From a virus, in IMG/VR virus record IMGVR_UViG_3300046028_001210, positions 1 through 37,621 of that record: 37,621 nucleotides of DNA. One strand, given 5' to 3'. Positions 772-27,070 of this stretch are shown one piece after another. A program made the position numbers and the translations under genes. The notes below the pieces were generated by a model. That model worked only from the letters and a program-made list of their open reading frames with translations. It had not been told where the DNA came from and made no database searches. How positions within the stretch are numbered: position 1 is the stretch's first letter; the number at the start of each line of letters is the position of its first letter.

Positions 772-3700
772 TTAATTATTTACTCCAGTGTCTACCACAA
801 TATCTTTTACTGCCCAATCTTTAACAGCTTGGTCAGTTAACATTTTCTCATACTGAGTAAATGCTTCTACTTTGTAAGCTGCCTTATACAGCGTACGTAA
901 ATCTTCACCTGTATAACTATTTAAAATAGCTTGTACAATGGCTGCGTGTGTCTTGTGTCCTTCAGTGTCGTTATTACGCAGTGCAGTGAGGGCTAGCATA
1001 GCGTGCTTACCAACAGCCTTAGAAGCCTCTTTAATCTCTGCTGCTGCTGCCTTACGGCTAGAGAACAACACAGATAAGTCTTCCTGAGCAGCAGGAGGAA
1101 TACCAAACCCAATCATCCATGCTTCAGTGTCCGTTACACGGAACATAGCACCACCAGCACCACTCTGTACTTGGTTGTAGTTGCTCATTGCAATACGAGC
1201 TTTTTGAATGTTGTTAAAGAAAGAAAAACTACCTTTACCCATTTCACTCATTGCAATTTGTAAAGTGTCCATAGTCATTGGAGCCTTACTAATAATGCTG
1301 AATGCTTCACCAAAGCTACCTAAGATACGTAGTGCAGCAAAACCAGAAGGGCCAGCAGCTACTTCCATAAAACTCTTCTCAGGGTCTAGCATACCTTTAA
1401 CAATATCTTCGTAGTATTTGAAAGTATTGAACCGGCTACCAATGGCTAGCTTTGCTTCACCATCAGTGATGGCAGCAATCATACCTGCAACAACACCTTG
1501 TTGTACTGTGAGTCTACCTGTCTCAGACATATCTTCTGGGACAACTTCTGTGATTAAGTCACGGAAAGGCCACAAGAAGTTACCAGCAGTACCCATAACA
1601 ACAGCGTGTGTTACTAGTAATTGCAATGCTTCTTTTTGTGAGAACGCCCTAGTGTTGCCTAACAAACTCTGAATCACATTCATCATCAGCTTAACTTGAT
1701 ACTGAATAAACTGTGCTGGAATAGATTTCCAACCAGTTTGCCAAGTAGCTACGTTAGCCTTAGTCATGTTCTGTGTAAGGTCATCTTGACGCTTTAGAAT
1801 GGTACTAAGACTGTCATCAGTCCACCATGCAGCACCGGGATTTGCACCCATGAATTCCCTACGTGCAATATCAAAGCTAACTAGTCGTGAATACCCTTCA
1901 CCAGCATTGAATGGTGATGCAGACACAGCACCCACCTTGCGGCGTAGACCATTAAACAAACCATACTTACCTGTCTCTGCACCGTACAAGCTACTGCTAT
2001 TAATGCCATCCATTAAACCAGTACGCCGAATAGAACGCACCACTTCAACAAACTCATCTTCACTCATACCCAAGCCTAAGTTACTAAGTTTATTACCCTT
2101 AGCAACATTACGCCAAATATCTTCTTGGTCACTCATCAATGCTAGCGCGTACATGCTAGAACTCTTAGCACTCTTCAAGCCGTGTAGTGGGCTAATAGCA
2201 ACAGCATTGAACGCATTCATACCTTGCATGAAAAACTGCACTGGGTTGAATGCAAAGAAACTATGGAAAGCAATTGTACGTGCCCACACTGGATAGTCCT
2301 TAGTAGCACGTAGTGCAGCACCTAGTTTAGCTACACCCCTACCACCAGCTTTACCTTCAATACCCTCACTAACTAAACGCATAAACCCTAAATAAGATTT
2401 CTCTTCTTTAGTGGGAATATTCATTTGTGCAATGATGTAATCTTGTACTTTCTCAGCTACTTGTAAACGTTTGCTTTGACCAACGTACATACCCTTGTTA
2501 TTCAGCATATATGTAAATGCTGCCTCTGGGGTCATTGTACGAATGTTAGCTGGTAGATCATCTACGAAACTATTGAACCAACGTTGAATGTGCGACTCAC
2601 GCCACTCTGTAACGGCTGCTACATACGCAGTGTTACCAATCTCACTGGCAACAGAATCCATAGGGTTAATTGTGTTAACCGTATCTTCACCTCGTACAGA
2701 AATAACTTTATCACCACGCTTGCTAGAGAAGTTGGTAGACATACCAATTGTCTCTTTAACATAGTCATCATCAGTACGGTTATACTTAACTTCAATCTTA
2801 AAGTTGTCACCATACTTACCAGAGTTAAGTACGTCTAGTACATCTTCTGGCTTCCAACCAAACGGCTGCATAAGTCTACCAGCATCAGACAGAGTTAACT
2901 TACCTGCTGCATGTAGGCTAGCTGCTTCTTTAAATGCTTTAACGTATGCGTTTGCTTCTGACACTGTTGATGCTGTTCGATGAGTACTAGTAACAGACTC
3001 AATAGCACCATCAATCTCATAGTCTGAAGTAATCTTTACGAAATACTCATCACTATAGATGCGGCGATATTCACCAGCACGATAGGGGATAACATTTTCA
3101 ATCTTACTAGTAGCGTAACTACCTTCTTTAAAAGCAATTGTTTTACGAATCTTACCATCAATGGTTACTGGTTCAGCACTCTCGTAGAACGTATAACCCT
3201 TTTGGTTAGCCTCTTGAAGAAACTCATCACTAACACGCTGCATTGTACCCTCGTCAGCTAGGTACACATACTTACCAATAGCTGGAGTAGTTGGTTTAAC
3301 AAACAACGTAGATGAGCCATCCTCTAGTTTTAAACCAGTGGAAATCTGAACATAGCCACGGCGAATCATACTCTTGGTAGCTACATCGTTACGCATCTGA
3401 TACATAACATCACGTAGTGCCCTTACTTTGTAATAGGCAATACGGGCATTAAAAGACATACCGTTACCAGCAAGTTCTGCTTCGCTAAACACTTTACTAT
3501 CTTTATCACCTAACACTAGTGCGTCATTAAGTGCCACCATTTCAGATTTGTTTAACTTCTCAACGTGTGGGCGTACAAACTCAGTGAGTAACTTGATGTA
3601 GCGACTCTCTTGGTTGATACCTACTAAACGTTGTTCGTACAATTCTTTAGAGGTTGATAAGGCCCAATCACCTAACGAGAAGCGTGAAGCACTATTAATA

Positions 3701-7219: not shown

Positions 7220-7648
7220 TTAAACCTTTGTAAATGCTAGTTCAGCAGGTTCATAACCTAGCTTACTTAATGTTGATGTTTTAATATTACTCTTAGGTAA
7301 TAATGATAATGCAATTTTAGAACCTACTGGTGCTATACTTTCAAATTGTTTTAATAATCTAACTGATACAGAAGATTCTCTGTACTCTTCTTCTACCCAC
7401 CAGAAAAGTTCTTGACATATAGTTTCATTTTTATTCCACATATTAGGAACAACTACACCGCCAATTACTCCAATAATTACACTATCTTTTTCTGCTACGT
7501 ATATAAAACCTGTTTTTAAAAGTTGTTGCAGTGTTTCTTTTACACTATCTTCATCCCATTTAAAGTGGTTAAAATATTCTACAAAACTTTTAGCTATGTT
7601 AGTTAAAGCAACTAAATCAAGTTCGGTTGCTAAACGTATGTTAGACAT
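7220..7648 (-). CDS. GNAT-fold protein, gp13-like
   Basis: This 142-residue protein begins with a GNAT-type first strand and helix (IRLATELDLVALTNIAKSF). It continues with the central beta hairpin (FIYVAEKDSVIIGVIGGVVV, about 50-70) and a WWVEEEYRESSVSVRLL segment (about 85-100) at the position of the acetyl-CoA-binding P-loop and helix, then a C-terminal strand ending in LGYEP. The classical RxxGxG/A loop is degenerate (YRESSVS), so cofactor binding is uncertain. The T7 gp13 family has the same fold and maps to the same place, between tail tube gene 12 and gene 14. It is needed for virion morphogenesis. The start overlaps the end of the tail tubular B gene by 8 nt. Acetyltransferase activity is possible but unproven. 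Confidence 0.72.
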   Translation of the reverse strand: MSNIRLATELDLVALTNIAKSFVEYFNHFKWDEDSVKETLQQLLKTGFIYVAEKDSVIIGVIGGVVVPNMWNKNETICQELFWWVEEEYRESSVSVRLLKQFESIAPVGSKIALSLLPKSNIKTSTLSKLGYEPAELAFTKV

Positions 7649-17617: not shown

Positions 17618-17877
17618 TACCACTTAACCTTATTTGCCCAATATGCAGCACTCATTTTACCCTTAGCAATGTTTTTAGCATGTCGTGCTTTAAAGGAGGC
17701 TTGTCGTGCAGTTGGTTCTTTATCACCAGAAACACCTTGTTGACCAAACCGAATAGTTTTAACTTGATCGCCTTCTTTAGCTACAACAACATGGCTCTTA
17801 GTAGCATGACTAGGTGTACGCTTAGGTTTGTTAAATCCAGAAACTCCTGCTCGTTCTAACCGACTATCTTTTGGCAT
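17617..17877 (-). CDS. Conserved small basic phage protein upstream of terL
   Basis: The 86-residue, Lys/Arg/Gly-rich protein begins MPKDSRLERAGVSGFNKPKRTPSH. It contains the block VVAKEGDQVKTIRFGQQG and ends AKNIAKGKMSAAYWANKVKW. I recognise this pattern as a widespread uncharacterised family found near terminase genes in environmental podoviruses; no activity is known to me. Its start overlaps the preceding stop (TAATG-type) and its own stop overlaps the terL start, so it is made together with the packaging proteins. The high positive charge and Trp/Tyr-rich end suggest nucleic-acid or terminase contact, but that is inference. Confidence 0.75.
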   Translation of the reverse strand: MPKDSRLERAGVSGFNKPKRTPSHATKSHVVVAKEGDQVKTIRFGQQGVSGDKEPTARQASFKARHAKNIAKGKMSAAYWANKVKW

Positions 17878-18146
17878 TATTTAACCTTACTAGATTTAGT
17901 GCGAGGAAAGCTACGATTATTAGTAGCACTTTGTACACGTAAATTACTACGAGATTTACCACCACCTTTACTCAGTGGCTTCTTGTGATCTACATCCTTA
18001 CCATCACCTTTGGTAACTAAACCCTCTTTAGTTAGGGTTCTACGTGCGCCATTTCTAGCTGCTCTATCTTTCTTTACAGAATCCTTACCATCATACTTCT
18101 CGTATTGTTTCTTATAATCACGCTTACCGTTAGTCATATATGGCAT
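17877..18146 (-). CDS. HNH-like small protein in the packaging operon
   Basis: The 89-residue protein is very basic. Its centre reads GDGKDVDHKKPLSKGGGKSRSNLRVQSATNNRS (about 46-78), which fits a compact HNH fold: DH in the first strand, GG turn, Asn at the second motif position and a later Asn. Many phages carry a small HNH protein beside the terminase, and in some of them it is needed for specific DNA cleavage during packaging. No zinc-binding Cys pairs are present. The gene overlaps both neighbours by 1 nt at TAATG junctions, between terS and the gene preceding terL. Nuclease activity is plausible, not proven. Confidence 0.7.
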   Translation of the reverse strand: MPYMTNGKRDYKKQYEKYDGKDSVKKDRAARNGARRTLTKEGLVTKGDGKDVDHKKPLSKGGGKSRSNLRVQSATNNRSFPRTKSSKVK

Positions 18147-18846: not shown

Positions 18847-19013
18847 TTTTTATTTGCTTTATTCTTAGCTGTACGCTCACCACGTTTAGGTAGGGGTTTA
18901 CCAGCAGAACGTAGTGCCATAGCAATGGCTTGTTTTTGAGGAACCCCTTGTGCCATTTCCTTTTTAATATTCTTACTAATAGTTTTTTGAGACTTACCTT
19001 TAGATAGCGGCAT
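18843..19013 (-). CDS. Small conserved basic protein (56 aa)
   Basis: An ATG at 19013 opens a 56-codon frame ending in a TGA (18843-18845) that overlaps the next start. The product begins MPLSKGKSQKTISKNIKKEM, then AQGVPQKQAIAMALRSAGK, and ends in a Lys/Arg-rich tail. The pattern of a charged helix followed by G.PQKQA.A.AL..AGK is a recurring small phage family in packaging regions. No function is known to me. High positive charge suggests DNA or RNA contact. The gene sits between the endolysin and the gene before terS. Confidence 0.72.
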   Translation of the reverse strand: MPLSKGKSQKTISKNIKKEMAQGVPQKQAIAMALRSAGKPLPKRGERTAKNKANKK

Positions 19014-19014
19014 A

Positions 19015-19470
19015 TTAAATTCCTTTTAAATAAACAGTTTTACCATTTTGTTTAACAGCGCGTAAGCACTGACATTTTAAATCGTTAGGGTCAAAACTAA
19101 CATGCACCCAACCACTAGAGGGTTGTCCATCTTCATAAAACTCTAAAATAAGTTGTGTAAACTTAAAGTTTTGTTCAATGAACTTTGCTAACATTTTATT
19201 GTCGTAACCAGCAATTTCAATGTCTGCTGCCATACCTAAGCAGTGATCGCTAGTAGGACTACCACCTACAGCTACGTTGACAGCAGGAGAACGATAACCA
19301 CTATTAATAGTAATTGGGCCAAGGCTATTACGAATAGGTTGTAAAACATTCAGTACTAACGCTTGTAAGTTACTAATAATAGTTTCAGTAGGAGTGTTGT
19401 CAATAGAACGGCGAATAGCCACTTCAGACTTACACAACTCATCTACAGTAAAGTTTGCTGACAGTTTCAT
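19015..19470 (-). CDS. Endolysin, M15-type zinc peptidase
   Basis: The 151-residue protein carries the M15 (D-Ala-D-Ala carboxypeptidase-like, M15_3) zinc site: SDHCLGMAADIE (H76 and D83) and SGWVHVSF (H123). NFTVDELCKSEVA near the start and LGPITINSGYRSPAVN (51-66) match other conserved blocks of the family. It should cut peptidoglycan cross-links at the end of infection. The full length equals that of compact phage M15 endolysins. No signal peptide is visible, so it depends on a holin, and the neighbouring gene (start overlap with its stop at 19467-19470) encodes a membrane protein of the holin type. High confidence. Confidence 0.88.
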   Translation of the reverse strand: MKLSANFTVDELCKSEVAIRRSIDNTPTETIISNLQALVLNVLQPIRNSLGPITINSGYRSPAVNVAVGGSPTSDHCLGMAADIEIAGYDNKMLAKFIEQNFKFTQLILEFYEDGQPSSGWVHVSFDPNDLKCQCLRAVKQNGKTVYLKGI

Positions 19471-19877
19471 TTGTTATTCTTCATTTCAATAATCTTTTCT
19501 AAAGTACGACCACCAAAGTAGGCAGACATAATGAGCATTCCCCATTGACCTAGAAGTTGTACATAACTTTCTTTGGCGTCATAACCAAAGGCACTCATAA
19601 GTGCAAATAAAAAGTATCCGGCAAAAATAGCAACCAGTGACATTGGCCGAATATTTTTAGACAACCAACTATCGCTATTCATATCAGCGTCCCAACGACC
19701 ACTGACATTTGTTTGTTCTGTTTTGTAAAGCTCTGTATCGTTAGCCATTTTAGCTAACTCACCATCTTGTGCCATCTTAGCTAAGTCAAGTTGTGCTTTA
19801 GCTTTAGCTTCAGGGTCTGGAATGAGTTTGTCGATGAGTTTACCACCAACTTCTAATAGTGCAGTTAAAGGAAACAT
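19467..19877 (-). CDS. Holin-like membrane protein (3TM/GTA-holin type)
   Basis: The 136-residue protein begins with a short amphipathic segment (MFPLTALLEVGGKLIDKLIPDPEAKAKAQ), then a helical soluble part with a KTEQTNVSGRWDADMNSDSWLSKNIRP block (about 52-78). That WxADMxSDSWLSKNIRP pattern is characteristic of the holin_3TM/GTA-holin family. Two hydrophobic segments follow (MSLVAIFAGYFLFALMSAFGY, about 78-98, and LLGQWGMLIMSAYFGG, about 108-123). It should form membrane lesions that release the endolysin, whose gene overlaps its stop. The lysine/asparagine-rich C-terminus is probably cytoplasmic. Confidence good for family, moderate for being the main holin because two other membrane proteins lie upstream. 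Confidence 0.8.
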   Translation of the reverse strand: MFPLTALLEVGGKLIDKLIPDPEAKAKAQLDLAKMAQDGELAKMANDTELYKTEQTNVSGRWDADMNSDSWLSKNIRPMSLVAIFAGYFLFALMSAFGYDAKESYVQLLGQWGMLIMSAYFGGRTLEKIIEMKNNK

Positions 19878-19880
19878 ATG

Positions 19881-20381
19881 TTACTTATTAATAGCGCAGT
19901 TTCCTGCACATTGTTCAAGGGCTTCGTACACAAACCAACCTGTAGCGCCAAGCACTACAACAACAGTGAGTATCAACAAAAACAAAGTGATGGCTTCATC
20001 AACTTCTTTATCGTGTCTCTTCTTAGCTTCTTTCTCTCTACGTGCATTATGTGCAGCTTCTTTATCAATAGATGCAGCACGAGCAATGATTTTAGCCCAT
20101 ACATCCATTTTATTACTTTGGAAGAACAACATCTTAATTTCTTCTTCAAAAGCTCTAGCTTGTTCAATCGCAAGTTCTAGTTCAATAGCTTTACCCATTG
20201 AACTGCCTTTGAAGCCAGATGTTTTAGATTGACTAACAACAGCAATGGCATCTGCCTTAGCTGAGAAGAACTTACCAAGAACAGGGCCAAGACTTTCAAC
20301 ATCCTTCACCGTTTGGGCAGCAGTCTTCACCAGCTTCACGGCTGTCTGTATTGCTGCTAACGCCATGAAGGGGTCAATCAT
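19881..20381 (-). CDS. Helical protein with C-terminal membrane anchor (lysis region)
   Basis: The 166-residue protein has a long helical part, including an acidic/basic coiled stretch (ELELAIEQARAFEEEIKMLFFQ and IDKEAAHNARREKEAKKRHDKEV). One strong transmembrane segment (ITLFLLILTVVVVLGATGWFVYEAL, about 130-155) follows, with a short tail containing two Cys. The opening MIDPFMALAAIQTAVKLVK resembles a family I remember from marine podoviruses, placed next to lysis or capsid genes and still uncharacterised. The start overlaps the stop of a 39-codon gene (ATGA). It could be a spanin-like or holin-regulating protein, but the orientation (long N-terminal domain, C-terminal anchor) is opposite to a classical i-spanin. 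Function unresolved. Confidence 0.65.
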   Translation of the reverse strand: MIDPFMALAAIQTAVKLVKTAAQTVKDVESLGPVLGKFFSAKADAIAVVSQSKTSGFKGSSMGKAIELELAIEQARAFEEEIKMLFFQSNKMDVWAKIIARAASIDKEAAHNARREKEAKKRHDKEVDEAITLFLLILTVVVVLGATGWFVYEALEQCAGNCAINK

Positions 20382-20497
20382 TTATTATCCTTAGTTACCC
20401 AAGTAAGACACCACACTTGTTTCCTATCAGAAGACCAACTCCACCTTTTACATACAGGAGCAGGAGCAACGTAAGCAGGAGGAGGAAGAGCATCCAT
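20378..20497 (-). CDS. 39-residue Pro/Trp/Cys-rich lysis-region peptide
   Basis: A 40-codon frame starts with ATG at 20497, overlapping the upstream stop (TAATG), and ends with TGA (20378-20380) overlapping the next start (ATGA). The peptide starts MDALPPPAYVAPAPVCKRW and ends in a Trp-rich, positively charged region with a second Cys (VWCLTWVTKDNK). The double coupling argues it is translated. A Pro-rich stretch recalls Rz1-type spanins, yet no lipobox or signal sequence is present, so I leave the function open. Confidence 0.6.
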   Translation of the reverse strand: MDALPPPAYVAPAPVCKRWSWSSDRKQVWCLTWVTKDNK

Positions 20498-20727
20498 TAG
20501 TGGCTCTTGAAATCTTGTACAAAGATACCAATAGCTGCTAGTAGTCCACCAATCCACAGGAGGGGCTTCACTAGCTTGCTAATGGTTTCTAGCACTGTGA
20601 AGGCTCCCTGAGCCGCGTCAAAGGCTTTAACAACCCCGTCTGTGCTAGTAGATAGATTATCCACCTTGCTTTCAACAGCAACTAGCCTGTCGTAGATTTC
20701 TCTGTGCGTTACATCGTGGTCGCTCAT
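20497..20727 (-). CDS. Single-pass membrane protein, possible XhlA-like holin partner
   Basis: The 76-residue protein has an N-terminal amphipathic coiled coil (HREIYDRLVAVESKVDNLSTSTDGVVKAFDAA, about 8-40). One transmembrane helix follows near the C-terminus (LVKPLLWIGGLLAAIGIFVQDF, about 51-72) with a short basic end. This coil-then-anchor layout is that of XhlA/hemolysin-type lysis accessory proteins. It opens the lysis cassette, upstream of the 39-residue peptide, a second membrane protein, the GTA-type holin and the endolysin. The start ATG lies just downstream of the HNH gene. Assignment to lysis is from architecture and position. Confidence 0.65.
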   Translation of the reverse strand: MSDHDVTHREIYDRLVAVESKVDNLSTSTDGVVKAFDAAQGAFTVLETISKLVKPLLWIGGLLAAIGIFVQDFKSH

Positions 20728-20736
20728 GGAGATTCC

Positions 20737-21306
20737 TCAGCAGGTTTCAAGTTGTTTAAGTTGACGAACTTTAGCCCACTGAGCCAAAGACGCTTGTCTA
20801 ATCTTTTCGCGTGTTTCATTTGACCAAATCCTTTTCTTTCCTGCTTCAGAAATCTTTGCTTTTGTTTCTTCAGATAGTTTCTTACCTGTTAACGCAGCAG
20901 ATACAAGGGGATTCTTTTTACCTTTAAAATGAGCAGATAGTTTTGCTCTTTTTTCAACGGAACATTCTCTCCCTTTATTAATACCTTTTAAAGATATCCT
21001 ATAAGTTGCCACTAATTCAGAATACTCTCTAGAACAATATCTTTTAACTGTTGCCATTCTATGCCAAGCACAAGCCATGCTTAATTTATACTTACCCTCA
21101 GTACATTTAAATAAAAGCAAATGACATAAAAAATGTTCTTTAGGTGTAAGTAAAATAAGATTTTCTTTTTTGTTAGTGCCGCCCATACTTTTGGGAAGAA
21201 TGTGGTGACTATCAAATTGACCATTTCCTGTTTTACTTCTTTTCTCCATCCGTGCTTTTTCAATAATAGCTAAATACCAACGATAATATTTATTATGAAG
21301 AAACAT
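20737..21306 (-). CDS. Free-standing HNH homing endonuclease with NUMOD repeats
   Basis: The 189-residue protein has an HNH core: GQFDSHHILPKSMGGTNKKENL (H34/H35, N49) and TPKEHFLCHLLL (H58, H62). In the C-terminal third, FKGKKNPLVSAALTGKKLSEETKAKISEAGKKR and WSNETREKIRQAS (about 128-175) are NUMOD3-like DNA-binding repeats typical of phage-borne homing endonucleases. The gene sits between the tail fibre block and the lysis cassette. Its ATG overlaps the end of the small tail gene at 21293-21460 by 14 nt. Its DNA is markedly more AT-rich than the fibre genes just upstream, supporting independent entry. It probably cuts related phages that lack the insertion. No intron structure was seen. Confidence 0.85.
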   Translation of the reverse strand: MFLHNKYYRWYLAIIEKARMEKRSKTGNGQFDSHHILPKSMGGTNKKENLILLTPKEHFLCHLLLFKCTEGKYKLSMACAWHRMATVKRYCSREYSELVATYRISLKGINKGRECSVEKRAKLSAHFKGKKNPLVSAALTGKKLSEETKAKISEAGKKRIWSNETREKIRQASLAQWAKVRQLKQLETC

Positions 21307-21460
21307 CGGCAGGTTCCGGAATCCCGCCCTCGGCCAGCCAGAGAAGGTAGGCTTGGTAGTCGGTGTTGGCTGGGTCGAATGGGATACTTATTTGCTTACC
21401 GATAATAGTAATGGCGCAAATTTCCCCTCTTTCATTTGCTTGCAGTTTGTATTCAACCAT
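21293..21460 (-). CDS. Small tail-fibre-associated protein (55 aa)
   Basis: An ATG at 21460, 2 nt after the upstream fibre stop, opens a 55-codon frame ending in TAA at 21293-21295. The product reads MVEYKLQANERGEICAITI, then IPFDPANTDYQAYLLWLAEGG and ends PEPADVSS. The DYQxYLxWLAEGGxPEPAD pattern is common in short proteins at the end of tail-fibre modules, where they are annotated as assembly or chaperone-like proteins. That function is inferred. The gene is G+C-rich like the fibre genes, unlike the HNH gene overlapping its end. Confidence 0.7.
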   Translation of the reverse strand: MVEYKLQANERGEICAITIIGKQISIPFDPANTDYQAYLLWLAEGGIPEPADVSS

Positions 21461-21462
21461 GT

Positions 21463-22266
21463 TTATAGCTCCGAACTAAAAATTAAACGACCTGCTGTAT
21501 TGTTATTAGAGTCTAGTTTTACTGGGCGATAAGTGGTCAATCCTGAGGACGTAACTGAAAGGGATGCTCCTGTTGATGTAACGTCTTCAATACTTCCACT
21601 AATAGCAGTCACGTTATACCCTGCTTGCCCATCATCTAGTCGCGGAGTTCCAACATAAGAAATAGTTGGAGATGATCGCATAGGGACTGGGACGGGCACT
21701 CTTATAGTGGCATTAATAGTTGAATTGCATTGACCAAGGTTTCCACCATAAGAAGAAAAAGCAGAACTTCCACCCCACTGAACGTAATACCGCTGACAAA
21801 GCGCCAACTCAGTGCCATAAGGCCGGTAGTCAAACGCCGTGGCTGTGCTGCCTTTTTCAAGCTGCACCAGTGAGAGCGTGCCGGTGTTGAACTCGATGGT
21901 CATGTTCGTGCCGCCAGTGGCTGTACCAGTGACACCAGACGCAGAAAAAGAACCGCCGTTAATCTTGCCTTGCGCCGTGCCTGAGAACGACAGCGTGTAA
22001 GTGCCAGACTGTAGGTTCAAACCTTCAACAACCTGCACCAGCGAACCGGCTGAAATCGTCAGGGTAGTGACATTTGCAACAGTTGCAAAGGTGTATGTGC
22101 AACCAGACGCGCCGCCCTTCCAGCGATCATGCCCGTAAGCGCCAGCAGCCAGCGTCACAGTGCCAGAAACACCGCGCTGGTTTACATTGAAGTTGCCATC
22201 AATGATGACGTTCTTTGTACCAATAGCACCGCCATTGATTGTGGAAATTACAAGATCACCTGCCAT
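21463..22266 (-). CDS. Tail fibre protein with carbohydrate-binding-like beta domain
   Basis: The 267-residue protein starts MAGDLVISTINGGAIGTKNVIIDGNFNVNQRGV, a recurrent start of phage fibre tips. It continues with beta-rich segments (YGHDRWKGGASGCTYTFA, LNLQSGTYTLSFSGTAQGKING) and the block VQLEKGSTATAFDYRPYGTELALCQRYYVQWGG (about 150-185). This XXLEKGxxATxFexRPxxxELALCQRYY signature is common in receptor-binding tail proteins. The C-terminal 80 residues are Ser/Thr-rich beta strands, likely the variable tip. The start overlaps the stop of the fibre/HNH fusion gene at TAATG. It is probably the outermost fibre subunit that contacts the host surface. Confidence 0.8.
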   Translation of the reverse strand: MAGDLVISTINGGAIGTKNVIIDGNFNVNQRGVSGTVTLAAGAYGHDRWKGGASGCTYTFATVANVTTLTISAGSLVQVVEGLNLQSGTYTLSFSGTAQGKINGGSFSASGVTGTATGGTNMTIEFNTGTLSLVQLEKGSTATAFDYRPYGTELALCQRYYVQWGGSSAFSSYGGNLGQCNSTINATIRVPVPVPMRSSPTISYVGTPRLDDGQAGYNVTAISGSIEDVTSTGASLSVTSSGLTTYRPVKLDSNNNTAGRLIFSSEL

Positions 22267-22832
22267 TACATTGCCCCTTTAAGTCCGTGATTGGCAAACG
22301 TGCCGTGGTACTTCTCACGCGCCATCGTTGCAACCAAATCAGCCAAGTCCAAGTCATCAAAAAACTTGGACACAACTCGCTTGCCTTTAACTGATACCTG
22401 TACAAACCACTTCTTGTTTTGTTTGCTCCAACAAACATTCTTGATTCCGAGCTTGTTGTTACTTTGAGCGCCTTTGTTCAAGCAGTTCAATGCGTTTGTG
22501 GCTGGCCTGAGATTTTCAATTACATTGTTTTTGCGGTTGCCATCAATGTGGTCAACCTGCTCCGGCAAGTAGCCGTGGTGCATACAGAAAATCACACGAT
22601 GAGCGCAATGCGAAACACCGTCCACCGTAACGGAGCCATAAGTGTTTGTAGATTGGCAGCCAGCAACCTTGCCAGCTTGAGCAACATTGCTCAGCGTTAC
22701 TTTCCAGTGCAGCACACCATCACGCAGCTCAAGCACTTCGTTGAATCGCTTCGACAAGCCTGTAGCCGCAGTGGCTTGCACGCTGTTGTCGGGGAAGGTG
22801 ACGCCACCTGTTCCGCTGATTGATACGGTCAT
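22266..22832 (-). CDS. Fibre-leader/HNH/AP2 fusion protein
   Basis: Residues 1-25 (MTVSISGTGGVTFPDNSVQAT...) are the standard N-terminus of tail fibre proteins. From about residue 30 the protein becomes an HNH endonuclease: HCAHRVIFCMHHGYLP (75-90), VDHIDGNRKNN (93-103, catalytic H95) and ENLRPATNALNCLN (106-119, N107). An AP2-like DNA-binding domain follows (GIKNVCWSKQNKKWFVQV ... FFDDLDLADLVATMAREKYHG, about 129-177). The frame is intact through the junction, so the endonuclease seems to have inserted in frame after the fibre leader. Neighbours on both sides are fibre genes joined by ATGA and TAATG overlaps. Either the leader merely supplies expression, or the fusion is tethered to virions. 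The fibre part alone is too short to trimerise. Confidence 0.85.
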   Translation of the reverse strand: MTVSISGTGGVTFPDNSVQATAATGLSKRFNEVLELRDGVLHWKVTLSNVAQAGKVAGCQSTNTYGSVTVDGVSHCAHRVIFCMHHGYLPEQVDHIDGNRKNNVIENLRPATNALNCLNKGAQSNNKLGIKNVCWSKQNKKWFVQVSVKGKRVVSKFFDDLDLADLVATMAREKYHGTFANHGLKGAM

Positions 22833-22990
22833 GCCAGTTGCTCCTCAGTTGGTCGTGCAAGCGTTGGGTGTTCCCAAGCTGCGATGTAGTCACCCTTGCC
22901 GTCAGAATCGTTCTGCAAGCGGATGGTGGTGGTGAAGTCGCTGTCGGTAAGCTCTGGGTACAGCGCTTTGATTTTGTCGTAGAGGGTCAT
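22829..22990 (-). CDS. XkdW-like small tail protein (53 aa)
   Basis: An ATG at 22990 overlapping the upstream TGA opens 53 codons, ending in a TGA (22829-22831) that overlaps the next ATG. The product starts MTLYDKIKALYPELTDSDF, continues TTTIRLQNDSDGKGDYIAAW and ends EHPTLARPTEEQLA. The YDKIKxLYPxLTDxDF and WxHPxLxRPTxEQL pattern matches XkdW-like phage tail proteins, which sit in fibre modules with no proven role. Overlaps at both ends indicate coupled translation. Confidence 0.8.
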   Translation of the reverse strand: MTLYDKIKALYPELTDSDFTTTIRLQNDSDGKGDYIAAWEHPTLARPTEEQLA

Positions 22991-23553
22991 GTTGCGCTCC
23001 TTACCATTGCGCCTGTAAATTTTACTGTTGATGCCGCTGAACCAATATTCATGGCAGAAACAGTAGTTTGAAAACCATAAACTTCAACATAATCAGTTGA
23101 ACCATTAAAATAAATAATTCCTGAAGCGTTGGCAAATGTAGTGTTGGTTGCGTTTAGTATAGAAAGCGAGCCATCTAAAAATCTTGATCCATTTTTATAA
23201 AAAGTAACTATGCTAATGCCTGTTGCTGTGTTTGCGCTATATGATATAGTGGCATTTAATTGATAATAACCAGCAACAGTTGGCGTAAAACGGCTAGAGG
23301 CAAAATTACTATTTGTATCAAAATCTTCTGTATCATAAGTAATTTTAGTAAATGTTGATGCCGCTGCACTAACTAATGCCGTAGATGAAACACTAAACGC
23401 TGGCCCGTTCACAGGCACACCAGCCGTAACCGTGGTCAGCACAGTGCCATTGGAGTCGGGCAGGTTGATGGTGCGGTTTGTGTTCGTGACAGGGGCCACC
23501 AGCGATACCACGCCAGTGCCCGTAGCCGAAGCCGTTACTGCAATCGAACTCAT
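22987..23553 (-). CDS. Tail fibre protein with C1q/TNF-like tip
   Basis: The 188-residue protein has a short leader (MSSIAVTASATGTGVVSLVAP, then TNRTINLPDSNGTVLTT) typical of fibre connectors. A C1q-like jelly-roll follows from about residue 55: AFSVSSTALVSAAASTFTKITYDTEDFDTNSNF, RFTPTVAGYYQLNATISYS, FYKNGSRFLDGS and STDYVEVYGFQTT. Trimeric C1q folds occur at tips of several phage fibres and bind surface glycans or proteins. Both ends overlap neighbouring fibre genes by ATGA. Role in host recognition is likely, receptor unknown. Confidence 0.8.
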   Translation of the reverse strand: MSSIAVTASATGTGVVSLVAPVTNTNRTINLPDSNGTVLTTVTAGVPVNGPAFSVSSTALVSAAASTFTKITYDTEDFDTNSNFASSRFTPTVAGYYQLNATISYSANTATGISIVTFYKNGSRFLDGSLSILNATNTTFANASGIIYFNGSTDYVEVYGFQTTVSAMNIGSAASTVKFTGAMVRSAT

Positions 23554-24521
23554 GCTGCTGCTCCTTCAAGGGCTGTGATGCGGGTTGTCAAGGAAGCAAT
23601 GCTAGCTTGCTGTACTGTGATGATGGCTTGCTGCTCTTGGATTGCTGCTGTCAGCGTAGCCACCAAGAAACTGGTGTCGATGCCTTGGTAGACAGGGCGT
23701 GTAGCCTCGTTGCCGTCTTCGTCTGTGTAGGTTTCTACAGCGTCTTTCTCGCCAGCAACGCAGTCAGGAACAACCGACTGCAATTCGTGAGCGATAAAGC
23801 CCTGACCGCTAGAGCCGTCCACCTTCCAGCTATAGGTCACAGGATTAAGAGCCTGAACCTTTGCAAGAGCGCCCAACATGGGCTGGACATTCTCTTTAAG
23901 TCGGTAGTCAGATGATGTGAGATAGGAAGTGCTTGTGCCATTGATCTGAATACGACCAACCTGACCATTGCCATTTTCAAGAGAAACAATGTTTACAGCG
24001 CCTGCTCCCAAATTAAAACAAGTAAGCGCTGCCTGTCCTCCATTTGCAGTACGGATTACTACACGGCCATTAGACCCAGCACCGCTTGGGTCAGCAAAAG
24101 TAGTCCCCACCAGCAAGTTGCCGCTGGAGTCGAGGGTCATGCGAGAAGCAAAAGTTATCGCTGCACCCGCCGTACCTGACGGTGCGTTTTGCCAATTGAA
24201 CGAACCATCTGTATCTTGGTAAAACCGACTTGCACTAAACCCTGTTGCAATATATTTATATCCGCTGTTGTAGTACGCATTTGCAAAAAGATATAAATCT
24301 GAACCACTTGAAGCTAGTGTTGCATTTTTATTCTGTAATGCTTTGAATACGCCATCCCAAGAACTAGGAACAACACCAACCCCAACATTCCCGCTGGCAT
24401 CCTTGTACACCTGCCCAGAGCCGATGTTGATAACACCCGTGCTGCCGGTCAATGTGCCGATGTAGGAGAGGTTAGTAGCATCATTGACGATGCCGCTTGT
24501 ACCATTTAACGTAATTGTCAT
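23550..24521 (-). CDS. Tail fibre protein with S74 self-cleaving chaperone
   Basis: I choose the ATG at 24521 (MTITLNGTSGIVND), which overlaps the upstream TGA, giving 323 residues; a frame 12 nt longer is open. The middle has fibre repeats (MTLDSSGNLLVGTT). From about residue 198 comes the intramolecular chaperone: SSDYRLKENV with a Ser/Lys pair (S204, K209) at the expected auto-cleavage site, then LNPVTYSWKVDGSSGQGFIAHELQSVVPD and a C-terminal coiled coil (ITVQQASIASLTTRITALEG). In endosialidase and similar tail spikes this domain drives trimer folding and then cuts itself off. The gene is G+C-rich and sits within the coupled fibre cassette. Confidence 0.85.
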   Translation of the reverse strand: MTITLNGTSGIVNDATNLSYIGTLTGSTGVINIGSGQVYKDASGNVGVGVVPSSWDGVFKALQNKNATLASSGSDLYLFANAYYNSGYKYIATGFSASRFYQDTDGSFNWQNAPSGTAGAAITFASRMTLDSSGNLLVGTTFADPSGAGSNGRVVIRTANGGQAALTCFNLGAGAVNIVSLENGNGQVGRIQINGTSTSYLTSSDYRLKENVQPMLGALAKVQALNPVTYSWKVDGSSGQGFIAHELQSVVPDCVAGEKDAVETYTDEDGNEATRPVYQGIDTSFLVATLTAAIQEQQAIITVQQASIASLTTRITALEGAAA

Positions 24522-25006
24522 AGAACTACCCACCTTGCACCCGTAGGCACTGTTACTATTACACCTGAAGCCACACTAATGGGGCCTGTAGACATAGCGT
24601 TACGAGAAGCACCAATTGAATAACTGGTATTCACTGTTTGACCATTCTCGATGAAAATTTCATCTGAGCCACCACCAGTTGCACCACCACCGACACTCCC
24701 CCATGCGGAGCCATTATAAACTTCTGGCTTACCTAGTGAGGTGTTAAAACGAAACCTACCAGTGACACCCGTAGGGCGCTCTGCTGTAGTACCTGCCGGA
24801 GTGTTAATAGCACCCGTAGTTGCTGTTTGGTTAGTTGTTGTAACTCCTAGGCTACTCTCTTTAACAAGTGGATGACCACCTGCTAGAGTGCCGTCATGGA
24901 CAACAACCGTATCCTTAGTTGTATCGACAGTGATTTCACCTACAACACCCGTAAACGTAGCGTGTTCTGTAGTTGTTCCACGCCGAAGCTGTACCGCTGT
25001 ACTCAT
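24518..25006 (-). CDS. Tail fibre/tropism-like protein
   Basis: The 162-residue protein starts MSTAVQLRRGTTTEHATFTG, followed by EITVDTTKDTVVVHDGTLAGGHPLVKE. This is the RRGT...HxxFxGxxGExTxDxxxxTxxVHDG pattern found at the N-termini of many phage fibre and tropism proteins. Later come TGRFRFNTSLGKPEVYNGSAW, a second typical fibre element, and a Gly-rich hinge (GGGATGGGSDE). The C-terminal end is a short beta region. It is coupled to the genes on both sides by ATGA overlaps. Function in fibre assembly or receptor binding is inferred. Confidence 0.78.
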   Translation of the reverse strand: MSTAVQLRRGTTTEHATFTGVVGEITVDTTKDTVVVHDGTLAGGHPLVKESSLGVTTTNQTATTGAINTPAGTTAERPTGVTGRFRFNTSLGKPEVYNGSAWGSVGGGATGGGSDEIFIENGQTVNTSYSIGASRNAMSTGPISVASGVIVTVPTGARWVVL

Positions 25007-26280
25007 ACAATGCTCCCGTAGTCAAGTGTAGCTGCCAGCTTATCCACTGTTACAGCATTATTAGTAATGTAAATTGTTCCCACCGTATCTAGCAAAGCTA
25101 AATCTCCCAAATCTTCTGGTTGTGTAGCACTATCTGCCAAAACCCCTTGTGCTGCTGTAGCATAGGCAGTGGCATTAGTTGTAGCTGCTGTACCCAACCC
25201 TAGGTTGGTACGTGCTGTTGCTTTGTTAGGTAGGTCAGATAAATTCTCTGCTTTAGCTAAGAATGTAGTTCCTTCAGCATAAGCATCTACCCAGATAGTT
25301 CCTGTATACACCTTCATAAAACCAGACACACTATTGAAATATAGTTGTCCAGCTACTAAAGGATTACCATCGTTGTCTAGAGTGGGGTCAGATGTTTTAG
25401 CACCTAAGTAGCGATCATCAAAACTATCAAAGGCTAGTAGTGTAGAGGCTAGTGCAGCTTCTGCTGCTAGTTGTGCATCAACTGCCAAGCCCCTAGCTGT
25501 CTCTGCATTTACTTCAGCCAACTCTGCGTTAGTCTCTGCAAGTTCAGCGGCTATCTCGCTAGCAGAGGCTGCATCAGCACTACCATCTGCCGCTGTTGCA
25601 CTAATTGCTGCTGCATCTGAACTTACATCAGCAGCGGTAGCTGACGCTAAGGCGGCTGCTGCATAAGTGTCAGCTAATAGCAACTCTGTCAAATTATCTG
25701 CTAAATCTATTACGTCTGCAATGTTAGTAGCTACTAACACAACACTGTCAATGTCATCTGCAACTTTTACAATTGAACTGGTAGTGGGTGTAGCTGGCCC
25801 TATGGCTGGGTCAGTGATTGCGCCGAAGTCATAAATAACACCTTGCTCAAACGCCCCATTCAAATCTAAACCAACAAGCTGTACACTACCAATGTTATTG
25901 GCAACTCCGATGATTTCGGTAATTGCATTACCTGTATTCTCAATTGCACCAATGTTGTCAACAATGACATCAATGTTATCAGCTACCTTAACAACATCAG
26001 CAATGTTATTAGAAACAATTGCAATTTCATCTAAGTAGGAGGTTACAATGGCTGTAGCTGTATCAACATAAAGTTTAGTGGCGGCATCACTACCATCCAC
26101 CGGAACCGGGAGGTTGATGATGCGCTGACTGTTGGCATCTAAAGAGGCCCCTAGTGAGTTAGGTACTGTACCGTCTAGTGATAGGGTGTTATCAAAGGCA
26201 TCTTGAATGGCTTCAAAATTCGCATTGAGAGCATCAATCGAACCGTAGCGACTCCCAATTGTATTTAAAACCAGTTTCAT
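25003..26280 (-). CDS. Tail fibre stalk protein, first gene of the left arm
   Basis: The 425-residue protein begins MKLVLNTIGSRYGSIDALNANFEAI, a common fibre start, followed by RIINLPVPVDGSDAATKLYVDT, the N-terminal fibre motif. Residues about 90-215 contain repeated NIxDVVxVADNI-like heptads (IADVVKVADNIDVIVDNIG, IVKVADDIDSVVLVATNIADVIDLADNL). An Ala-rich region of over 80 residues follows, probably a coiled coil or stalk. NLSDLPNKATARTNLGLGTAA (about 350-370) is the well-known fibre repeat. It should join the fibre to the tail and form its shaft. Being first downstream of promoter element A, it heads the fibre operon. SD AGGA lies 8 nt before the ATG. Confidence 0.85.
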   Translation of the reverse strand: MKLVLNTIGSRYGSIDALNANFEAIQDAFDNTLSLDGTVPNSLGASLDANSQRIINLPVPVDGSDAATKLYVDTATAIVTSYLDEIAIVSNNIADVVKVADNIDVIVDNIGAIENTGNAITEIIGVANNIGSVQLVGLDLNGAFEQGVIYDFGAITDPAIGPATPTTSSIVKVADDIDSVVLVATNIADVIDLADNLTELLLADTYAAAALASATAADVSSDAAAISATAADGSADAASASEIAAELAETNAELAEVNAETARGLAVDAQLAAEAALASTLLAFDSFDDRYLGAKTSDPTLDNDGNPLVAGQLYFNSVSGFMKVYTGTIWVDAYAEGTTFLAKAENLSDLPNKATARTNLGLGTAATTNATAYATAAQGVLADSATQPEDLGDLALLDTVGTIYITNNAVTVDKLAATLDYGSIV

Positions 26281-26315
26281 TATCTATTCCTGTGTGTTAT
26301 TTAAAACAAGTATGG

Positions 26316-26349
26316 CTTAGAGGGATTAGGCGTAAAAACGTTACCTTTT
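26316..26349 (-). promoter_or_regulatory. Two-block repeated element, copy A (candidate late promoter)
   Basis: Read on the minus strand from 26349: AAAAGGTAACGTTTTT, 11 nt, CTCTAAG. It lies 36 nt before the first left-arm start codon (26280). Copy B at 14007-14040 has the same blocks at the same spacing. Placement before two operon heads on the same strand supports a promoter. No good sigma-70 -35/-10 pair overlaps it, which suggests a phage or modified polymerase, though this is inference. Confidence 0.6.
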
Positions 26350-26364
26350 GCTGTATGGATTTAA

Positions 26365-26378
26365 GGGGTTTTAACCCC
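26365..26378. repeat. Short inverted repeat GGGGTT/AACCCC
   Basis: GGGGTT, TT, AACCCC form a near-perfect palindrome just upstream (with respect to leftward transcription) of promoter element A. There is no U-run on either strand, so an operator or a hairpin is more likely than a terminator. Low confidence in function. Confidence 0.4.
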
Positions 26379-26479
26379 ACTTGGCTACCACCCTACCAGC
26401 CCCTGTTTAAAAACCCCTACAACCCCCCTTAAAACGTCTAGAAACCACATGTTCACCTATCAGCAACAACCATACAAGA

Positions 26480-26493
26480 GGTGGGTGGGTGGG
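26480..26493 (+). other. Potential G-quadruplex (GG-T-GGG-T-GGG-T-GGG)
   Basis: Four G-tracts are separated by single T residues, the most stable loop length for parallel quadruplexes, although the first tract has only two G. On the opposite strand, 26389-26426 also has four G-runs with longer loops. The position between the arms suggests a role in strand separation or transcription control, not shown. Confidence 0.4.
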
Positions 26494-26545
26494 AAACACT
26501 CCAATATTTATAAAATAATAGATGTTATTAGTAGCTACCCCCATA

Positions 26546-26573
26546 GAGATAATTTTATGGAGATAATTTTACG
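26546..26573. repeat. Tandem 14-bp direct repeat GAGATAATTTTAYG
   Basis: Copies at 26546-26559 (GAGATAATTTTATG) and 26560-26573 (GAGATAATTTTACG) abut directly and differ at one base. Adjacent half-sites of this size are typical of dimeric or cooperative binding proteins. No second pair was found elsewhere in the window. Confidence 0.6.
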
Positions 26574-26709
26574 CGTCATTGCAACATAAAACCAACCCCC
26601 CTACCCCCCTTATCGATTAAGTTGAAAGAATTACATGAGTTTAAAACATTATAACTTTAGTATTACAGAATATAATTGTTACTAATAATATTAATAAGGG
26701 TTTACCCTA

Positions 26710-26738
26710 TTGACAAATAGATTAAACTGTGATACCCT
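26710..26738 (+). promoter_or_regulatory. Candidate host sigma-70 promoter toward the early arm
   Basis: A perfect TTGACA (26710-26715) is followed after 17 nt by TACCCT (26733-26738), a weak -10 match, at the edge of a long TATA-rich tract that offers further -10-like hexamers. It could drive rightward early transcription, giving an untranslated leader of about 0.85 kb. Moderate to low confidence. Confidence 0.35.
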
Positions 26739-26739
26739 A

Positions 26740-27070
26740 TATATATATACTATATATAACTACTATATATACTATATTATATATATACTATAGTATAGTT
26801 ATATATATACTATAATATATACTATTATATATATATATACTATTACTAGTATACTATTGATAGTATATAACTATCTTACAATTATATATATATCTATAGC
26901 CCCTAGTATATATACTATTACTGTTATATATTACTATTATTGTTATATATATCAACTATCTATTACTATTTACTAGTATTGCCATATACATCAACTAATT
27001 AGTATAGCTGTTATAATTACTAATATACAGACACTACTACGTACCTACTACAATTCCCCTAATTATATAT
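26740..27070. repeat. AT-rich low-complexity tract with TATACTAT-like repeats
   Basis: About 330 bp are almost pure A/T, with irregular repeats of TATACTAT, ACTATATA and ATTACTAT words. Many short palindromes and two ACTAGT sites (26845, 26972) lie in it. Such a tract melts easily and is typical of origin unwinding elements. It contains no open frame of interest. Confidence 0.7.

Follow-up and report, generated by a model that had tools for sequence, protein, structure and literature searches.

A predicted homing endonuclease gene fused to a tail-fibre leader probably reshuffles fibre genes between freshwater phages

The window analysed here is an IMG/VR virus record taken in full (37,621 bases), whose terminase is 56% identical to those of the Methylophilales phages MEP401 and MEP402, the latter listed in the family Zobellviridae. 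Its minus strand carries a fibre cassette in which the N-terminal leader of a tail fibre runs in frame into an endonuclease, directly ahead of a fibre gene that has a leader of its own. The features of this locus are as follows, with related contigs and loci designated by L numbers throughout.

22829-22990, minus strand: XkdW-like (tail fibre assembly) ORF of 53 aa (PF09636, E = 5e-7), overlapping the endonuclease gene by ATGA
22841-22846, minus strand: GAGGAG, a Shine-Dalgarno-like stretch of presumed use, within the end of the XkdW-like ORF
22266-22832, minus strand: leader-HNH endonuclease fusion ORF, a single open frame of 188 aa with an ATG start
22756-22832, minus strand: captured fibre leader, 77 nt, 100% identical to positions 4001-4077 of L041
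22269-22748, minus strand: HNH-AP2 core, starting at RFNE and conserved with the leaderless relatives L154 and L155
21786-22748, minus strand: conserved block of HNH core, second leader and proximal fibre half, ending at the YGTELALCQRYY motif
21463-22266, minus strand: downstream fibre with its own leader, MAGDLVISTINGGAIGTKNVIIDGNFNVNQRG... (phrog_4492, tail fiber, E = 9.2e-37), overlapping the endonuclease gene by TAATG
21463-21785, minus strand: distal fibre part, not conserved with L041 or L002
21293-21460, minus strand: small ORF of the downstream fibre (phrog_20370, unknown function, E = 1.1e-7)

Judging from its position, the small ORF likely encodes the assembly protein of the downstream fibre. 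A second endonuclease ORF (20737-21306, minus strand; NUMOD3, E = 4.4e-10; phrog_655, E = 5.4e-38) starts over the end of this small ORF, so that the fibre cassette of the window has an endonuclease on each side. The same cassette includes a fibre with a peptidase S74 chaperone (23550-24533, minus strand; E = 4.1e-12) and an ORF with an Mtd N-terminal domain (24518-25006, minus strand; E = 3.8e-14), the ORF next upstream of the XkdW-like one (22987-23553) gave no Pfam match at E<=0.1, and an 89-aa ORF with a weak HNH match (17877-18146, minus strand; E = 0.01, below the cutoff) lies among small ORFs just upstream of the terminase gene. A first-pass annotation had described residues 1-25 of the fusion ORF as a fibre leader with a continuous frame into an HNH endonuclease, which the single 188-aa frame bears out. 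It had also reported coupling to fibre genes on both sides; the ATGA and TAATG overlaps agree with coupling, but the gene directly upstream is XkdW-like and not a fibre. Nor is the location as unusual for a homing endonuclease as was then suggested, given that the gene still lies between genes, namely the XkdW-like ORF and the fibre.

The protein matches HNH_3 (PF13392) at residues 77-114 (E = 2.4e-14; 53.1 bits versus a cutoff of 24.8) and the HNH endonuclease family phrog_99 at residues 28-185 (E = 8.3e-59), and the conserved HNH Asp-His pair and Asn (D94, H95, and N107) are invariant in 32 sequences. Moreover, a profile built from 32 relatives hits I-HmuI, a homing endonuclease (1u3e; 1.2e-6). 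Pfam AP2 was not found in the 188-aa protein at E<=0.1; the top Foldseek matches of the fold model are AP2 domains (7et4, probability 0.98, with an E-value of only 0.33). The AlphaFold model has a mean pLDDT of 86.8 and is confident from about residue 21-30 on, with residues 1-20 poorly modelled; the model of the downstream fibre was too poor to use (mean pLDDT 45.7). The gene is best read as encoding a predicted free-standing HNH(-AP2) homing endonuclease of the phrog_99/HNH_3 kind. Two other arrangements were considered and rejected. For an intron-encoded endonuclease, there is no Rfam match in 19000-27000 at gathering thresholds, and the downstream fibre has its own ATG and leader; for an intein, the frame stops at TAA (22266-22268), and the fibre begins at a new ATG.

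Two protein scans of viral contigs delineated a distinct endonuclease clade of 16 contigs (the window, L002-L013, L154, L155, and L156), the cores of which begin with RFNE or RFNQ. In a tree of the core (8 distinct cores and 8 outgroup rows), the clade forms one side of a branch with support of 96/93. A fibre leader is present at the N-terminus in 14 of the 16 contigs; there are four kinds of leader, all in frame, and fibres in which the same leader continues into a fibre body, that is, empty sites, exist for each of the four. The leaders, their empty sites and the breakpoints, read from alignments that were anchored at the leader ATG and in which identity stops abruptly at the endonuclease, are the following.

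Window-type leader (type A), on the endonuclease of one contig, the window: empty sites in L083 and L085; break in window/L041 after 77/77 identical nt and in window/L083 after 66/77 nt, both 10 nt before the Asn codon
L002-type leader, MSQVRVNTIVDANSGNTAQINGMTPTADS, in L002: empty sites in L234 and L235; break in L002/L234 after 89/92 nt, 10 nt before the Asn codon
L009-type leader, MTYGTVQANAIQGSINTFSPNSAV, in L009: empty sites in L322, L325, L326, and L327; break in L009/L325 after 74/74 nt and in L009/L322 after 73/74 nt, both 4 nt before the Asn codon
MPITLDGT leader, in 11 contigs: empty sites in L248, L260, and L300; breaks in L005/L248 and L006/L300 after 24/24 nt each, 72 nt before the Asn codon

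Thus, in three of the four leader types, leader DNA of 74-92 nt breaks 4-10 nt before the conserved Asn codon of the fibre body; the MPITLDGT break, at 72 nt, departs from this distance and counts, like the absence of a leader from L154 and L155, against the reading that we prefer below. Short words common to leader and insert occur at two of the joints, AGCTTGCA in L002/L234 and, up to the break, GGCTT in window/L041, and may reflect joining at a short match. The starts of the two leaderless genes, L154 and L155 (GTG-TTA-GCT or ATG-ACA-CTA), lie just before RFN, which places the native start of the endonuclease at the fusion joint.

These comparisons establish the origin of the N-terminus of the window protein, which is a leader of the MTVSISGTGGVTFPDNSVQATAATG kind. 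In L083 and L085, a near-identical leader continues directly into a full fibre body, ATGFGFKNRIINGAMVIDQRNAG; these are the ancestral-type fibres that the first-pass annotation proposed to look for among relatives without the insertion, and its suggestion of a captured fibre start holds for all four leader types. In L041, L040, and L039, the same 77-nt leader is followed not by HNH but by FGFKNRMEAI and a stop, and then by the same fibre (MAGDLVISTINGQAIGTKNVIIDGNF...). Since FGFKNR is the usual start of the fibre body, L041 contains a severed leader without an endonuclease, so either leaders are also cut by other means or an endonuclease has been lost there. This severed leader (L041 4001-4105, 35 codons) overlaps the next fibre by TAATG and is a possible scar of endonuclease loss; among phage records, the 35-aa ORF matched a single protein, a tail fibre from MEP402 (E = 0.03). 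MEP402, for which there is a cultured host, shows the arrangement with a leaderless endonuclease.

That the leader could be a general feature of HNH genes was also considered and rejected: the best phage-record relatives are less than 60% identical, and in the two phage records checked, in which the match reaches residue 1 or 2, the annotated gene starts within the match, so the leader part of the alignment falls outside the gene. Leaders attached to HNH genes outside fibre cassettes had been named at the outset as evidence contrary to capture; when 2.9 million viral contigs were scanned for the exact patterns of three leaders, 10, 3, and 6 stretches were returned, and no HNH gene accompanied them outside a fibre cassette.

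The leaders changed repeatedly within the clade. The sister contigs window and L002 share 89% identity in the core yet differ in their leaders, L009 groups with the leaderless L154 and L155 (support 86/87), and the five N-terminal states require at least four changes. The gene that follows is of one kind: in 16 of 16 clade contigs it is a fibre with an N-R-I-I-N-G type motif, versus none of the 106 other HNH ORFs of the profile in HNH-fetched loci that have a downstream gene (near-copies included; 7 further ORFs have no downstream gene in the locus). Purifying selection on the endonuclease core is strong, with dN/dS of 0.05-0.15 in the 11 computable pairs out of 28 (dS is saturated or not computable in the other 17) and 0.071 for the window endonuclease versus L002. 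A single scan of 84,980 genomes for prophage relatives yielded one weak match, in a Flavobacteriaceae MAG.

Conceivably, the leader is not part of the nuclease at all, translation starting internally with the first leader left upstream as debris. Leu26 of the window protein is encoded by TTG at the place where the leaderless L154 has its GTG-TTA start, and in L090, L099, L103, L113, and L324 the leader is a separate mini-ORF ending over the endonuclease start. Nevertheless, each of the four leader types in the HNH clade is in frame, GAGGAG precedes the leader ATG with no such stretch seen before the TTG, and genes of the L003 type have no start codon at that place, so we regard an internal start as improbable. 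GAGGAG also precedes the leader in L041, and GATGAGGAG precedes that of L248. Far less probable still is a role of the leader in targeting the endonuclease to the virion for entry into the next cell with the DNA; the attachment of a structural-protein N-terminus is the single point in favour of this notion, whereas leader length ranges from 8 to about 30 residues, two clade members are leaderless, and residues 1-20 are modelled with low confidence.

The same fibre start has been entered by other endonucleases. In L324, the L009 leader (71/74 nt) is interrupted at the same base as by the HNH gene in L009, and the interrupting gene encodes a GIY-YIG endonuclease with NUMOD3 (PF01541, E = 7.1e-7; PF07460, E = 4.5e-21), the leader frame ending in the TGA of an ATGA over the endonuclease start. 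The leader of L113 (72/74 identical to that of L101) breaks at the same 10-nt distance, and the protein behind it matches the I-HmuI NUMOD-like family (1.9e-6, cutoff passed). The same layout, with a truncated leader ORF ending over the endonuclease start, recurs in L103 (NUMOD3, 6.9e-20), L090, and L099 (phrog_314, homing endonuclease; 6e-13 and 5.7e-4, respectively). The HNH clade thus exploits the fibre start by in-frame fusion, and the other families do so by stop-start overlap.

With respect to frequency, the available samples are both biased by the choice of query and by selection of the best 80 matches, and their endonuclease counts rest on relatives of the families in hand, such that others may be missed. 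In a leader-plus-body sample whose query contains no endonuclease (L074-L153, the best 80 of 559 relatives), an endonuclease lies directly upstream of an NRIING-type fibre in 9 loci, 8 of 80 fibre genes with at least 250 nt upstream are preceded by one, and there are 17 endonuclease ORFs in all, three more of which (L106, L122, and L148) stand before a fibre of another type. The third sample, fetched through a downstream gene from an endonuclease-bearing contig (the best 80 of 119, several of them near-copies), contains an NRIING-type fibre with 250 nt upstream in 24 of 79 newly fetched loci, and in 9 of these 24 an endonuclease lies directly upstream, five belonging to the HNH clade (four of the five being near-copies). 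Endonuclease ORFs also occur upstream of a different fibre type (MSxIxxGxTSGS...), in L012 (2365-3114), L106 (626-1207), L122 (1762-2292), L148 (185-919), L264 (343-1158), L267 (356-940), and L300 (190-762), so fibre starts in general may be homing targets. One short contig, L149, has two NRIING-type fibre starts (near 3000 and 2312) on opposite strands, by inversion or as an assembly artefact.

What moves along with the HNH gene is seen most directly in a pair of contigs from different metagenomes, L233 (the L002 contig, with the endonuclease) and L234 (without it). Identity between the two is 96.3% along 7.5 kb of upstream DNA and 96% in the leader. Behind the leader, L234 continues into its native proximal fibre half, where L233 instead has the HNH gene, a second leader and a different proximal half; beyond these, the distal fibre is again 97.6% identical over 127 nt, up to the end of the L234 contig, the translated distal part reading identically from inside ...ATPFERRPYGTELALCQRYF. 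About 100 bp just before the leader (7540-7638 of the reverse complement of L233), with a small ORF starting MTFDEWWADQVAKELMY, are missing from L234, and the matching pieces around this extra stretch overlap by 14 nt. Presence and absence at one site in otherwise similar genomes is also seen in L005/L248 and L006/L300.

The same unit recurs across backgrounds. A block of about 985 nt, which begins 3 nt ahead of the endonuclease ATG and reaches the same fibre motif, shows 97.5-99.3% identity in listed pairs among L003, L004, L005, L007, L010, L012, and L013 (the L004/L005 pair is lower, at 95.7%, and its match extends further out), while the flanks are 73-91% identical or unrelated and the upstream ORF varies between groups; global-alignment percentages of unrelated stretches were used only as related or unrelated (shuffled expectation 1.4). 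In the window, the corresponding block (21786-22748) is 79.7% identical to that of L002 over 967 columns, and leader and tip differ. Thus, endonuclease, new leader and proximal fibre half move as a block of about 1 kb. The exception is L006, which has upstream DNA and endonuclease in common with L012 (92.6%) and a different proximal fibre half, so that endonuclease and fibre half are not always linked. Because the endonuclease travels with a replacement front half of the fibre, this homing gene probably reshuffles fibre genes between freshwater phages. The proposal in the first-pass annotation that such genes move fibre modules is thereby upheld as regards sequence exchange; its extension to host range is not supported, since L233 and L234 exchange the proximal half and the distal tip is unchanged. 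Likewise, the downstream fibre does start from its own ATG, as described earlier, but it is not the remainder of the interrupted fibre: its leader is a separate one and its proximal half, in the best pair, differs.

All of this could be ordinary shuffling of fibre modules at short conserved stretches, with the HNH gene a passenger behind the leader and its activity not driving the exchange. Leaders and fibre halves indeed shuffle without endonucleases too, which counts against our preferred explanation: the same leaders occur on many bodies with no endonuclease, the L041 leader is cut with none present, and in L006 the proximal half changed with the endonuclease unchanged. Mere shuffling, however, sits poorly with the finding that endonucleases of unrelated families interrupt leaders at one and the same base or 10-nt distance, with all 16 clade members at this type of fibre junction, and with strong purifying selection on the nuclease; we consider it unlikely, albeit the most serious of the alternatives. 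A precise joint, its use by unrelated nucleases, presence and absence in near-identical genomes and a sharp-edged block are together what homing leaves behind.

We therefore favour, with a probability of roughly 70% and on the basis of sequence comparison, a free-standing homing endonuclease that exchanges the 5' end of the fibre gene it enters for another, in mirror image of the yeast WHO elements, at a homing hot spot. The enzyme would cleave fibre alleles close to the conserved F-(K/R)-N-R-I-I-N-G codons, and repair would copy in the donor endonuclease gene together with the donor fibre leader and proximal half. Homology at the conserved Y-G-T-E-L-A-L-C-Q-R-Y region would set the right edge, and a short match at or within the recipient leader the left one; the breakpoints themselves are seen in the alignments. 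The outcome would be leader1-endonuclease/leader2-fibre: translation of the endonuclease would begin in frame at the ATG of the old leader, from the ribosome-binding site of that leader, and the fibre would still have an intact 5' end, supplied by the insert. In the next transfer, the fused leader1 might double as the left homology arm, and the incoming fibre half would be resistant to cleavage.

With respect to resistance, the motif in fibres behind the HNH clade differs from that of most empty fibres, e.g., IIDGGFTINQRG versus the INGAMVIDQRNAG that 9 of the 15 fibres lacking an endonuclease in the third sample (the best 80 of 119) have exactly, suggesting that INGAMVIDQRNAG could be the signature of the sensitive allele. 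The difference is confined to this one clade: fibres behind other endonuclease families do not differ at the motif, and INGAMVIDQRNAG occurs in them too. More tentatively, and with somewhat less than even odds, endonuclease, resistant leader and proximal half might constitute a phage homing element, a unit of about 1 kb translated from the captured leader of the recipient, with the junction a general hot spot for several unrelated families and homing a main engine of exchange of proximal fibre halves.

The mosaic nature of tail fibres is well known, much less so what drives and positions their exchange. Here, endonucleases of at least two unrelated families use one base-precise junction, and the exchanged piece is cleanly bounded, which makes a specific, enzyme-driven explanation open to test. 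Such an explanation would provide a bacterial-virus parallel to WHO elements, which replace a host-gene end without splicing, and would show one way for enzymes to acquire structural leaders. Searches of open-access papers listed none in which a homing endonuclease captures the leader of a fibre gene.

Free-standing endonucleases of phage T4 split genes and overlap their neighbours, and gene-splitting insertions include mobE in nrdA of Aeh1 and mobA in T4 gene 60 (PMC2988022); in Xanthomonas phages, a role for HNH genes in the duplication of tail-fibre domains has been proposed, in a study that found no conserved flanks for HNN-AP2 genes and regarded their spread as sequence-independent (PMC2248197). 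Like the T4 mob genes and the HNH-AP2 genes of Xanthomonas oryzae phages, the window gene is free-standing, lies beside a conserved gene, and has start/stop overlaps (PMC2988022; PMC2248197). Unlike either, its product has as N-terminus the leader of the very gene that was split; furthermore, unlike in the T4 mob splits, the downstream fibre part has a new 5' end and is not a split half, and, unlike the HNN-AP2 genes of PMC2248197, the window clade has a precise insertion site. HEG islands larger than 10 kb are found at boundaries of phage exchange (Barth et al., 2023; PMC10448857), where, as here, endonuclease genes occupy the edges of exchanged DNA near essential genes. Those islands are flanked by endonuclease genes, whereas here a single gene and half a fibre make up about 1 kb; the term 'Tail fiber' is absent from the main text of that paper.

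A further parallel is with the WHO elements of yeast, which replace the 3' end of FBA1 at each homing (PMC7282813). In both cases, the element brings a replacement end for the host gene and leaves a fragment of the old one. The differences are that the 5' end would be replaced here and the 3' end of FBA1 is replaced by WHO, that the enzyme is of the HNH type as opposed to an intein-derived zinc-finger endonuclease, and that cleavage is shown for WHO (PMC7282813) and predicted for the window HNH protein. Given that the latter belongs to HNH_3/phrog_99 and is not of the HO type, the window gene would appear to work like a WHO element without being one.
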